This document shows, in pieces, positions 44,970 to 56,389 of a stretch of 64,000 nucleotides of DNA. Under the pieces are notes generated by a model. The model made no database searches. It worked only from the letters and a program-made list of their open reading frames with translations, and was not told where the DNA came from. The position numbers and the translations under genes were made by a program. Position 1 is the first letter of the stretch; every line of letters starts with the position of its first letter. Origin of the DNA: Blastococcus sp. CT_GayMR16 (GTDB lineage: Bacteria > Actinomycetota > Actinomycetes > Mycobacteriales > Geodermatophilaceae). Location: NCBI RefSeq assembly GCF_004570875.1, contig NZ_SPQK01000008.1, positions 62,001 through 126,000 on the forward strand, written 5' to 3'.

Positions 44970-45027
44970 ACTCAGGGCAGCCGGTCGTAAGACCGGCTGC
45001 CCTGAGTTCACGCGCTGAGCAGCGCGT
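44970..45027 (-). terminator. strong terminator and companion hairpin after the GAKWGR-peptide gene
   Basis: A perfect 17-bp stem with a four-base loop (44970-44986 and 44991-45007) is preceded, in the direction of minus-strand transcription, by a 7-bp hairpin (45010-45016 and 45021-45027). They start 20 bases after the peptide stop codon. The bases after the large stem read CGTTTC. Their strength indicates the tiny gene has its own transcript that ends here, before the GGDEF/EAL gene. Confidence 0.85.
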
Positions 45028-45046: not shown

Positions 45047-45157
45047 TCAGACAGCGACCGTGCGGCCCCACTTGGCACCGCGACCCCACTTGGCACCGCG
45101 GCCCCACTTGGCTCCGCGAACTGCGCTCTGACCAGACTGGACGTTGTTGATCCCCAT
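45047..45157 (-). CDS. 36-residue peptide with three GAKWGR repeats, function unknown
   Basis: A short open frame starting at an ATG with a near-perfect ribosome site (GAGGAGG five bases upstream) and ending before strong terminators. Residues 1-14 are MGINNVQSGQSAVR; residues 15-32 are three exact tandem copies of GAKWGR; the end is TVAV. The product is basic (six Arg/Lys in the repeats plus one Arg), with three Trp at a six-residue period and no signal peptide. The 18-bp DNA repeats differ at third positions, which suggests selection on protein. I do not recognise a family. No maturation enzyme lies next to it. Confidence 0.65.
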   Translation of the reverse strand: MGINNVQSGQSAVRGAKWGRGAKWGRGAKWGRTVAV

Positions 45158-45387
45158 GATTGCCTCCTCGGCATGACTGACTGCGGCATGCGGCAGCCAC
45201 TTACGCGCGGGGGCAGAGCGTCGTTCAGTACGGACCGCGCTGGAGACATTGCTTCCCGTCACTCGTCTGGACAAGCTTCGAAGATCACGACGGGGTGACG
45301 GTCCCTCGCGTCGTAGCGCTCCGTAGTCAGAATTAAGCGACTTGTCACCAAACGGGTGAACGGATAGGTCCTCCGTCGATCCGTAAC
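45158..45387 (-). promoter_or_regulatory. leader/promoter region of the GAKWGR-peptide gene
   Basis: About 230 bases of noticeably lower GC than the surroundings and without coding bias. A weak promoter match on the minus strand, TTGTCC then 17 bases then CAATGT, lies about 115 bases upstream of the ATG. TCACC-CGTTT-GGTGA forms a small hairpin further upstream. No known riboswitch consensus was recognised. Confidence 0.4.
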
Positions 45388-47487
45388 TCACCTCGGCAGC
45401 CGTACCCGGCCGCCGCGTCGCTCCTCCATCTGCTCGATGCGGTCCGCAGGCCCGGGGGCAACGGCATCCAGAATCGGGTCGTACCAGTGCGACTGCGGCG
45501 ACGTGGGCGGGGCGGGATGCCCCAGCACACCGGCCGTCCGCTCGAAGGAGTCGCGGGCCTGTTCCGCGATCCCGAGGACCGCGAGCCCCTCGTCAGGGGT
45601 CAGCGCTGCGATCTCGGCCGTCGGCTCGAACGTCAGCCCGTGAAACCCCCCGTTGTCCCAAGTGCCGTCGTAGCCGAGCCCCATCGCGGCATAATCCGCG
45701 AGCAGCCCCAGAACCACGCCCGCAGAACCAGGCGCCAGGGATACGGCGAGATCGACAGTCATGGTCCACAAGAATGCGCGGTCCTGCGCCTCCCTCTGCT
45801 CCTCGAGGCCATGCAACGTGTACGCGAGTTCCTGGCCGTAGTTCTGCACCGCGAGGTAGGCATTCGGGACCACGACCGCGGGTAGTTGCGGGAGCGAACT
45901 GCCGCCGCTGATGTCGACCGGCTGGGCGGTCACCCAGCCCTGCAAGGCCTCCTCCACAACTGCCGAGGCGCTCCGGTCCAAGGTCACGTAGCCGAGGCCG
46001 CGCAACAGCGCGGCGTCGGCGGCTGGGAGAGAACCATCCACCCCGGACATGAGCACCTCTCCGGCGAGCGAGACGTGCACGGCCGTCCGTCGGCCAGCGC
46101 GGTCGACACCGCGTTCGCCGCAGCCCGGGCGACCGGCCAGTCGTCCGCCTTCCCGTCCTCCAGGCGCACCCAGGGCCTCGAGCCCACCACGCACGACCGC
46201 CTCGCCTGCTGGACCCTCCACCGCCCCGGCCGACGCCACGAGTGCCTGCAGCGACGTTCCGCAGTCCTCCCAGGTACGCGCGAGAAGAACGCCCCACACC
46301 CAGGGCCTGTTCAGGAAGGCGGCCCCGGCTGCCGGATCGGTGCCCTCGCCGAGGATCGCCACGACGGCGACGAGTGCGTCGACCGGTGCCGCCACGTCGC
46401 TCAGTGGATTGATCCGATCGACGGAGGCCGCCCCGAGCACCCGCTCGCGGAGCGCGATCTGCCGCCCCCACGCGGCGACCGTCTGCGGGTCGAGGCCGCG
46501 CGGGCCCAGCGCGAGGCTCGCGGCGAGGACGGTGCCCATGCCCAGGACACCGAGGTCGTCGAGGCCGGCGGGATCGTCGGCCGACGTGTACTCGGCCGCC
46601 AGAACCTCGGCGACCGGCCCCGTTCCGTCGTTCCGAGCGGCGGCGCCGAGTGCGAGAGCGACCACTCGGGCGAGGGCACTCTGCGGTCCGTAGTCACCAC
46701 CGCCGAGGTGTTCCAGAGCATCCCTCGTCCCGACCGGTCCCAGGCCGGCCAGAAGGGCGCCGGCGAAGGACACGGACCCCGCGAAGGCCAACGCGTCGCG
46801 CGCCAGATCCTCCCGGTCTTCCGGGTTGATGAACTGACCAAACCCGTCTGCGAGCGCGCGGCCACGGCGGGCGAGCTCCAGGTCACCCCAGCCCGGCAGC
46901 TGAGCGGCCAGGTACGCAACGACCCGGTTCGCGTCACCCGGCGCCCTGCGGCCCCCGACCGCGGCCCATGCGTCGTCCAGCACGCGCGCCGTCGCGGCCG
47001 CGTCGTCCTCGAGTTCCTCCAGCAGCGCGGTGTGCCGTCGTCGCCGGCGCCCCTCCCCGGCCTCGACGTCGGCCACAATCGCCCGGACGTCGGCGCCGCC
47101 GGACATGACCTGCAGCCGCAGGTCCTCGACCTGCCCGAGGCGCCGCCATGCCTCGGCGAACTGCTCGCTCTGTTCGGCCCCCAGCGCGGCCACTTGGCGC
47201 CGGGTCTCCCGGAGGCGCTCCTCGTGGGTCCTCAGCCGACCGCTCGCCGGCAGCACGGCGGCGGAGACCTCCCGGACCAGCGCGGTGACTGCGACCACCT
47301 GCGCGGCGGCCGCAGCGGCGTCGTCCCCCAGCCACCCTGGCGCGGCGTCGGCGGCTCCGAGGAGACGGTCGTCGACGGCGGCGACACACACGCCGGCGCC
47401 GGCTATGGCGCGGACGAGGTCGGCCAGCGCGTCGGGGTCGCCCGGCGGCATGTCCAGCGGGATCTGATCGGGCATCTCGGTGCTCAT
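45388..47487 (-). CDS. large type VII/WXG-like protein of unknown function, with two compensating frameshifts
   Basis: 699 codons from an ATG that overlaps the preceding small gene by four bases (ATGA). Residues 1-180 are strongly helical and Ala-rich with heptad-like charge (RRQVAALGAEQSEQFAEAWRR, here cut to the EAWRRLGQVEDL part), followed by a RRRRR patch and an Ala/Leu/Gly-rich middle that resembles the DUF6571-like proteins found beside actinobacterial WXG genes. Between about 46170 and 46080 the coding bias moves to another frame (reading LEDGKADDWPVARAAANAVS) and then returns. There is no signal peptide. Function unknown. Confidence 0.6.
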   Translation of the reverse strand: MSTEMPDQIPLDMPPGDPDALADLVRAIAGAGVCVAAVDDRLLGAADAAPGWLGDDAAAAAAQVVAVTALVREVSAAVLPASGRLRTHEERLRETRRQVAALGAEQSEQFAEAWRRLGQVEDLRLQVMSGGADVRAIVADVEAGEGRRRRRHTALLEELEDDAAATARVLDDAWAAVGGRRAPGDANRVVAYLAAQLPGWGDLELARRGRALADGFGQFINPEDREDLARDALAFAGSVSFAGALLAGLGPVGTRDALEHLGGGDYGPQSALARVVALALGAAARNDGTGPVAEVLAAEYTSADDPAGLDDLGVLGMGTVLAASLALGPRGLDPQTVAAWGRQIALRERVLGAASVDRINPLSDVAAPVDALVAVVAILGEGTDPAAGAAFLNRPWVWGVLLARTWEDCGTSLQALVASAGAVEGPAGEAVVRGGLEALGAPGGREGGRLAGRPGCGERGVDRAGRRTAVHVSLAGEVLMSGVDGSLPAADAALLRGLGYVTLDRSASAVVEEALQGWVTAQPVDISGGSSLPQLPAVVVPNAYLAVQNYGQELAYTLHGLEEQREAQDRAFLWTMTVDLAVSLAPGSAGVVLGLLADYAAMGLGYDGTWDNGGFHGLTFEPTAEIAALTPDEGLAVLGIAEQARDSFERTAGVLGHPAPPTSPQSHWYDPILDAVAPGPADRIEQMEERRGGRVRLPR

Positions 47488-55333: not shown

Positions 55334-56389
55334 CTAACTGGTGCGGGTGACCACGTAGTCGCACAGCGCCGAGAGCGCGTCGCGGACGTCGCCCGCGGGA
55401 ATCTCGTCGAGCCGGACGCGGGCGCGGTCGGCGTACTGGGCCAGCACCTCGTTGGCGCGGGCCAGGGAGCGCGACGAGCGCAGCAGGGTGAGCGCCTCCG
55501 CGTGGTCGGCGTCGTCACTGATGGGAGCGGCCACGAGCTCCCGCAGCCGCGCCTCGGCCGGGTCGTTCCCCGCGAGCGCGAACAGCGCGGGCAGGGTCGC
55601 GATGCCTTCGCGCAGGTCGGTGCCGGGCAGCTTTCCGGAGGCGCCGTCCTGGCTGACGATGTCGAGCAGGTCGTCGGAGATCTGGAAGGCCACCCCGACC
55701 TCCTCGCCGAAGGCGGTGAGTGCCTGCACGAGGGTCTCCTCGACCCCGGCGAAGCTCGCGCCGAAGCGGGCGGAGGTCGCCACCAGCGAGCCGGTCTTGT
55801 CGGCCAGGACGTCGAGGTAGTGGGCGATGGGGTCGTCGCCGGGCTGGGCGCCGACGGTCTCCTTGATCTGACCGGTGACCAGCCGCTCGAACGTCTGTGC
55901 CTGGATCCGTACGGCGTCCGGGCCGAGGTCGGCCAGGAGGTCCGACGCCCGGGCGAAGAGCAGGTCGCCGGTCAGGATCGCGATGCTGTTCGTCCAGCGG
56001 CTGTTGGCGCTGGGAGCGCCGCGCCGCACGACCGCCTCGTCCATGACGTCGTCGTGGTACAGCGTCGCCAGGTGGGTCAGCTCGCAGACGACGGCCGCGC
56101 GGATCACCTCCGGGGCCTGCGGATTCCCCAGCTGGGCGGCCAGCAGCGCGAGCATCGGCCGGAAGCGCTTGCCCCCCGCGGACATCAGGTGGCCGGCGGC
56201 CTCGCGTACGAAGGGGTGCTCGCTGCCGACGGCCGTGGTCAGCGCCGACTCGACGCGGATCAGGCCCTCGGCCAGCGAGGCACCCAGTGCTCCCTCGGGG
56301 AGCCAGGGGCCGATGGTCGACGCCGGCGTGGAGCCCCGGTGCCAGACCTCGGTGGAAGTGCCCTCGACTGCGGCACGGGCTCCGGTCAT
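55334..56389 (-). CDS. long-chain polyprenyl diphosphate synthase
   Basis: Class I trans-prenyltransferase making the side chain of a quinone, most likely menaquinone in an actinobacterium. From the ATG at 56389 it has 351 residues. GGKRFRPML, the first aspartate-rich motif YHDDVMDEAVVRRG (DDxxD), GDLLFARA and the second motif FQISDDLLDI (DDxxD) are all visible. The ATG shares a base with the nuoN stop (TGATG), tying it to complex I expression. Confidence 0.93.
   Translation of the reverse strand: MTGARAAVEGTSTEVWHRGSTPASTIGPWLPEGALGASLAEGLIRVESALTTAVGSEHPFVREAAGHLMSAGGKRFRPMLALLAAQLGNPQAPEVIRAAVVCELTHLATLYHDDVMDEAVVRRGAPSANSRWTNSIAILTGDLLFARASDLLADLGPDAVRIQAQTFERLVTGQIKETVGAQPGDDPIAHYLDVLADKTGSLVATSARFGASFAGVEETLVQALTAFGEEVGVAFQISDDLLDIVSQDGASGKLPGTDLREGIATLPALFALAGNDPAEARLRELVAAPISDDADHAEALTLLRSSRSLARANEVLAQYADRARVRLDEIPAGDVRDALSALCDYVVTRTS

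Follow-up and report, generated by a model that had tools for sequence, protein, structure and literature searches.

A 36-residue Trp-repeat peptide and the c-di-GMP enzyme encoded directly downstream of it form an old, clade-specific gene pair. The peptide gene was found in a 64,000-nucleotide stretch of Blastococcus DNA (hereafter, the window) and had been described as free-standing in an earlier sequence-only reading of that stretch. Instead, it recurrently occupies the position immediately before the gene for the same c-di-GMP enzyme, and conservation of the pair lends strong support to another option raised in that reading, namely, a link to the neighboring GGDEF/EAL protein. We lean toward viewing the peptide as a dedicated regulator or ligand of the adjacent enzyme, ComX/ComP-like in anatomy.

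The peptide gene and its leader

The features of the locus are listed in Table 1. Translation of the minus strand from 45157 to 45047 yields MGINNVQSGQSAVRGAKWGRGAKWGRGAKWGRTVAV (36 residues), laid out as MGINNVQSGQSAVR-(GAKWGR)3-TVAV, and a search of the source genome with the peptide revealed the gene to be present in single copy. The gene and its GAGGAGG site are as given in the sequence-only reading, which had named no strand; both lie on the minus strand. The reading frame extends open upstream as far as a GTG at 45391 (114 residues). The ATG is preferred over this GTG because of the position of the GAGGAGG site and because relatives keep an SD-like motif at the matching start. Indeed, such a motif was found in 101 of 102 family genes, with ATG serving as start codon in 98 and GTG in four of the 102.

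Table 1. Features of the peptide-enzyme locus and other window features mentioned in the text (window positions)
Feature	Position	Strand	Remarks
Partner gene, 849 aa	42331..44880	minus	Seven long predicted helices, GAF, degenerate GGDEF-like motif (RMEGEQF), EAL motifs intact
Perfect 17-bp hairpin	44970..45007	minus	Terminator-like
7-bp hairpin	45010..45027	minus	3' of stop; read from sequence
Trp-repeat peptide gene, 36 aa	45047..45157	minus	ATG at 45157, stop codon 45049-45047
Three tandem GAKWGR units	45062..45115 (45115-45098, 45097-45080, 45079-45062)	minus	Same protein, DNA silently different
Ribosome-binding site GAGGAGG	45163..45169	minus	Five bases 5' of ATG
Leader element (GCGCGGTCCGTAC...GCTCTGCCCCCGCG...GGCTGCCG)	45191..45240	minus	From alignment of 99 leaders
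Open frame, 878 aa	45388-48024	minus	Upstream of peptide
Nearest polyprenyl-synthase-family (PF00348) protein	55487-56212		

The two terminator hairpins that had been reported 3' of the stop, one with a 17-bp stem, are both present, although inspection revealed no clear U run after either. In the family, stems of at least 8 bp within 110 nt of the stop were detected for 37 of 102 genes, as compared to 24 of 510 shuffles. Post-stop hairpins are, therefore, common but not general in relatives.

The leader element was defined in the 99 regions having enough upstream sequence, across which it is nearly invariant and more conserved than the peptide unit. RNAalifold applied to these 99 leaders predicted just a weak 5-bp stem (-5.3 kcal/mol), and no covariation signal was seen because the element is too invariant to show any. 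The possibility that the leader corresponds to a regulon motif was rejected, given that one exact and eight one-mismatch copies of its 14-mer in the genome, as opposed to 19 for the reversed control, are attributable to chance.

The window peptide matched 0 families in Pfam and NCBIfam, and a search of Rfam with permissive settings gave no match at gathering score. Likewise, comparison of seven relatives' peptides with Pfam, and of six with NCBIfam, gave none above cut-off. As Trp peptides of the family and its relatives range from 16 to 135 residues in length and have no matching model in the libraries searched, annotation can easily miss them.

Distribution of the pair in the Geodermatophilaceae

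When the exact peptide was used as query in a tblastn search, 57 of 112 family genomes were matched, a limited reach that arises because the unit changes between species. When the first 400 residues of the enzyme served as query, the enzyme was found in 106 of the 112. Inspection of the region upstream of every enzyme copy (108 regions) revealed a Trp-motif ORF in all 108, 101 being recognized by an automatic test (at least two Trp at period six) and seven by eye, a regularity that exceeds chance. Hence, conserved homologues in relatives, the absence of which would have refuted the sequence-only reading by its own terms, do exist. Seven of the 108 regions are omitted from the unit statistics presented below (n = 101). 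Of these, G065 has a single unit, G101 is degenerate, G070 and G072 are of the secreted SW type, G071 and G073 contain AWN repeats truncated by contig ends, and in G063, the script missed the start despite three clear units. G010 was kept, even though its start is near a contig end.

Carriers include Blastococcus capsensis, mobilis, aggregatus, litoris and endophyticus, Geodermatophilus obscurus, siccatus, africanus, nigrescens and amargosae, and Klenkia soli. In 19 family genomes, each read over 9-13 kb around the locus, the order of neighbors, named from their sequences alone, is aminotransferase, M1 peptidase, two dehydratase-like genes, enzyme, peptide region, Tad-like gene and YajQ, with small gaps. 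The 878-residue open frame upstream of the window peptide shows patchy similarity to relatives (about 36-60% in parts, missing in several), unlike the well-kept flanking genes. Two genomes, both incomplete assemblies (88 and 82%), contain two enzyme copies, each with its own peptide. The units are AGRWGR and NGRWGR in the one (G067; L125, L126) and TARWGR and TAKWGR in the other (G036; L077, L078).

That the peptide is a scattered repeat was considered in a pattern scan of the genome collection and rejected. At least 113 loci were obtained. Some 23 of them, as judged by eye, read as short ORFs that have both a start codon and a ribosome site, with the rest resembling low-complexity DNA. Among the scan matches listed, the approximately 23 short-ORF loci all come from the family, two being labeled otherwise (Frankiales MAG L320 and 'Bacillus sp.' L327). 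The record of the latter, 'UNVERIFIED_ORG: Bacillus sp. AZ43', contains the peptide together with an enzyme that is 73.5% identical to that of the window, and its organism label looks wrong. Order-level tblastn with the peptide matched G190 and, more weakly, G192. The G190 match was rejected as a homologue since the repeat there lies inside a 484-residue open frame, with 0 of 13 compared window genes around it.

Variation and selection in the repeat unit

Examination of the 101 genes revealed 67 different first hexapeptide units (e.g., GAKWGR, GVKWTR, GHKWSR, and TAKWNR). Trp and the Arg found two residues after it are invariant in all 101. The residue before Trp is Lys in 57 genes, Arg in 40, Ser in three and Met in one, that after it is only Gly, Ser, Thr, Asn or Ala, and the position two before Trp is occupied by 14 residue types. 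Genes contain two (34 genes), three (43), four (21) or five (3) units. In all 102 family genes, the last Trp lies 2-7 residues from the C-terminal end, being the second-last residue in 27.

Comparison of neighboring units within a gene (195 pairs) revealed 267 synonymous versus 15 nonsynonymous codon differences. At the protein level, 183 of the pairs are identical, and silent differences are seen in 148 of these 183. The nonsynonymous rate within a gene is 0.008 (mean silent rate, 0.37), whereas between species, at a silent rate of 0.3-0.4, it is about 0.17 per site. In ten genes, the full units are not all alike, and eight of these differ solely in the last residue of the last unit. The sequence-only reading was, therefore, correct in noting that the DNA repeats differ at silent positions, as holds for all three units of the window, and in taking the protein repeat to be what is kept, as holds family-wide; its view that the gene bears the signs of being expressed likewise stands, in that the sequence looks like an expressed protein-coding gene.

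The codon pattern indicates that selection acts on the peptide product. The units of one gene are thus old copies that have diverged silently while being held to the same amino acids, with the shared sequence changing between species. Units identical inside a gene yet free to change between species represent an unusual pattern that asks for a mechanism, and argue that the peptide product serves a function for which it matters that the units be equal.

The partner enzyme

The gene encoding the enzyme starts 166 bases after the peptide stop codon and is similarly oriented. In an AlphaFold2 model, seven long helices precede the GAF domain (mean pLDDT 73, pTM 0.59). A fold search with the membrane-GAF model gave 12 matches with E below 0.001, which look like GAF-type sensor proteins, and no solved structure resembling the helical part. 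In all 30 family rows considered, EAL motifs are present and GGDEF is degenerate (RMEGEQF and variants); one of the rows termed 'outside' in this motif count (L214) is the window itself. GGDEF is intact in two rows of a family of relatives (f16). Given a degenerate GGDEF alongside EAL motifs that are present, the enzyme is probably a c-di-GMP phosphodiesterase in the Geodermatophilaceae.

Relatives beyond the family

Other families, both of the order and of the class, contain membrane-GAF orthologues at about 25-34% identity. In one clade, the enzyme gene again lies 3' of a gene for a small Trp protein. Of 21 enzyme places other than those of the family orthologues, 20 were read, with G282 being left out. 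Multiplication of a Trp motif recurs in relatives with unlike units (G117, G119, G132, G309, G348, G070). The peptide of G117 contains GALWG twice, those of G119 and G132 contain DGNTWTF and DGGSWTF repeats, and that of G309 contains a signal-like segment and four copies or near-copies of GDIVWQ. Tails of relatives' peptides include VVWL, AIWG, DFDWN, GSSWT, EFEWH, ITWN, HKWY, and TRWG. A hydrophobic N-terminal segment is present in 20 of the 24 relatives listed, as opposed to 0 of 102 family peptides. The last Trp is 2-13 residues from the end in 22 of the 24 (34-35 in G123 and G136) and is the second-last residue in 15. Proteins of 43-74 residues encoded upstream of the orthologous enzyme at L163, L165, L174-L178, L180, L181, L202, L203 and L205 begin with a hydrophobic segment and have a Trp motif that is either in the C-terminal part or close to it; those submitted to Pfam or NCBIfam found no match.

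In a maximum-likelihood tree of 59 membrane-GAF domains, the 32 rows labeled by eye as having a Trp protein fall, together with G121, into one clade of 33 (support 100/97), and the 26 rows outside the clade were labeled, also by eye, as having none. G121, labeled 'no' in the tree, was found afterwards to contain a 16-residue ORF ending in GFGWH that had fallen below the first length cut. An automatic check was also performed, in which a row passed if an ORF preceded by an SD motif and ending within 350 nt had Trp among its last five residues, the enzyme starts used being in part entered by hand or estimated. With outside row G352 dropped for lack of upstream sequence, 14 of 22 rows inside the clade versus 0 of 25 outside passed (p = 9e-7). 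In the other eight clade rows, the Trp is found 7-35 residues from the end. As background, 36 of 351 SD-preceded ORFs of the same loci, peptides included, have Trp in the last four residues. A second, distant enzyme homologue in G023, a family genome, is without a Trp ORF and was left out of the tree. Trp-peptide families number eight in the same order, the window's own included, and one outside (G348). It is in this distribution that the age and clade-specificity of the pair are seen.

Co-variation of the unit and the membrane domain

In 50 genomes whose loci held the full domain, the distance between units was correlated with that between membrane domains once GAF distance was removed (partial r 0.30, p 0.001). 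In the reverse test, relating unit to GAF with membrane-domain distance removed, the value was 0.06 (p 0.15). When the neighboring Tad-like protein was also removed (n = 34), the value for the membrane domain was 0.36 (p 0.001), with GAF and the Tad-like neighbor giving 0.09 (p 0.08) and -0.09 (p 0.86), respectively. This co-variation of the unit with the enzyme membrane domain is only suggestive, because distance-matrix tests are inflated by shared ancestry and because the membrane domain is a faster clock.

Proposed function

The reading of the peptide as a partner of the enzyme draws on conservation of the pair, the holding of units identical at the protein level, the recurrence of Trp multiplication, the tracking of the membrane domain by the unit, the presence of two different units in genomes with two enzymes, and the signal-like segments of relatives. 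The sensor part of its own enzyme, that is, the membrane helices and perhaps GAF, would recognize the Trp unit, with several identical units offering either several equal ligands or one multivalent ligand. Binding of the peptide would change the activity of the EAL phosphodiesterase and, in turn, the c-di-GMP level. The Trp tail of relatives would be placed outside by a signal peptide or membrane segment, such that the deep form of the system may involve a peptide, either secreted or tethered, that is perceived at the outer face in the way that ComP perceives ComX. In the Geodermatophilaceae, where the signal-like segment is missing, either another export route would be used or the peptide would act from inside; because none of the family peptides has a hydrophobic segment, an outer-face ligand would have no known route there.

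A more far-reaching version is offered tentatively, as a possibility that we would not presently favor. Here, the peptide would be a gene-encoded signal with a c-di-GMP enzyme as receptor, such that a multi-copy Trp-unit precursor, perhaps released in the family at the invariant Arg, gives rise to species-specific 'pherotypes' co-evolving with the membrane domain of the adjacent phosphodiesterase, in a system shared by eight families of the order and one outside. The literature, searched with most subscription journals outside the scope, provided no report recognizable as this pair. The pair would be categorically new, with the reservation that its working mode may prove to be a variant of peptide-receptor signaling. 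For many of the c-di-GMP enzymes that bear membrane sensors, no signal is known. Were the peptide the partner of the enzyme, a large actinobacterial group would gain a gene-encoded and easily synthesized c-di-GMP input.

Alternative explanations

The peptide could instead be a regulatory leader (arrest) peptide. In this view, ribosomes translating the short ORF would stall close to the Trp or at the stop codon, and so determine whether the hairpins are read through into the c-di-GMP gene, with secretion being monitored, in relatives, by the signal-like segment, as SecM and MifM do. The short ORF precedes the enzyme by 27-258 nt in the relatives covered by the automatic check and 166 nt in the window, the leader element is strongly conserved, and Trp is second-last in 15 of 24 relatives and 27 of 102 family genes, while among arrest motifs described in the literature, some require the stop codon and one, KYxIW, contains Trp (PMC10987492). 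The post-stop hairpins also fit such control in the part of the family that has them (37/102), but many members are without. Moreover, stalling offers no role for tandem units whose amino acid sequence is kept identical, Trp aside there is no C-terminal motif common to the different families, the downstream gene is not secA, secDF or yidC, and a post-signal spacer exceeding 30 residues, used as a search criterion in that same source (PMC10987492), is impossible in 43-residue members such as G138 and G223. We thus deem this explanation rather unlikely. The sequence might also be taken for a repeat lacking function, or for an element of RNA or DNA mistaken for an ORF, given that the leader is more conserved than the unit. 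Yet silent codon variation goes together with retention of the start, ribosome site, frame and stop, a pattern that largely contradicts the notion and renders it highly improbable.

Two further proposals are both considered improbable, to a similar degree. The Trp units could be cores of a RiPP precursor, modified by an unlinked enzyme (through cross-linking, prenylation or otherwise) and exported as natural products or pheromones. Multi-copy identical cores of changeable sequence with invariant Trp and Arg would suit such a precursor, as would the presence in the genome of three polyprenyl-synthase-family (PF00348) proteins, the nearest about 10 kb away. Still, the conserved neighborhood is without an adjacent modification enzyme, and the statement in the sequence-only reading that no maturase is adjacent holds. 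Its suggestion of a Lys-Trp cross-linked product is not supported, as a search for SPASM radical-SAM proteins in the genome returned solely the mycofactocin maturase, and the Lys before Trp is replaced by Arg in 40 of 101 genes and by Ser or Met in four. This maturase, MftC, was identified at L345, 487-1956 (+), by TIGR03962 (651 bits). Alternatively, a cytosolic basic Trp peptide could bind c-di-GMP, RNA or DNA, acting in the same pathway with no contact to the enzyme. In line with this idea, the residue preceding Trp is basic in 97 of 101 genes, Arg is at +2 in 101 of 101, and the family lacks a signal peptide; against it, units of relatives are neutral or acidic (DGNTWTF, GDIVWQ, DFDWN), many accompanied by a signal-like segment.

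Comparison with known systems

Lys-Trp radical-SAM RiPPs would be expected to have a dedicated SPASM maturase and conserved Lys and Trp; here, MftC was the only SPASM-domain protein found, and although Trp is conserved in 101 of 101 genes, Lys precedes it in just 57. SecM, MifM and Apd-type arrest peptides (PMC10987492) are similar in that a short ORF lies upstream of a gene for a membrane protein, the encoded peptide often having a C-terminal motif as well as a signal or membrane segment. They differ in that the present peptides share no arrest motif beyond Trp, in some cases have spacers that are too short, contain identical tandem units and precede another kind of gene. An N-terminal secretion or membrane signal is seen in 0 of 102 family peptides and 20 of 24 relatives, and in place of the published criteria of a conserved C-terminal motif and a spacer of over 30 residues (PMC10987492), only Trp is common to the families, with members of 16-43 residues among them.

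Among c-di-GMP enzymes, RpfR and dCACHE receptors perceive quorum-sensing molecules directly, these being BDSF and AI-2, respectively; in the passages of the 2022 census drawn on here, these are the quorum inputs to c-di-GMP, with no peptide signal being described (PMC8846402). The ligands in these cases, a fatty acid and AI-2, are not gene-encoded peptides. DbfQ, portrayed in excerpts of PMC12714742 as a periplasmic protein and small regulator acting on the sensor kinase DbfS, offers the likeness of a small protein encoded beside a membrane sensor in a biofilm and c-di-GMP context. On the basis of those excerpts, the present system differs in its tandem Trp units, in the lack of a signal peptide in the family and in that the partner is itself a c-di-GMP enzyme.

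Membership in ComQXPA was rejected, since no ComQ is adjacent and the partner is not a kinase. Specifically, no ComQ-like isoprenyl transferase (PF00348) adjoins the pair, the receptor ComP is a histidine kinase while the partner here is a GAF-GGDEF-EAL c-di-GMP enzyme, and tandem identical units, as well as the signal-like segment of many relatives, set the present peptides apart. It is nonetheless ComX-ComP that the pair resembles in anatomy. In PMC4008528, ComX is presented as a short precursor of variable sequence in which a Trp lies close to the C terminus, and ComP as a multi-helix receptor whose variable part is the membrane part. Here too, a short, very variable, Trp-bearing putative precursor is encoded adjoining the gene for a multi-helix membrane protein, the candidate receptor, the membrane part of that protein is more variable than its cytoplasmic part, and the Trp, found within 5-10 residues of the C terminus in ComX, lies close to the end in all 102 family genes and in 22 of 24 relatives.
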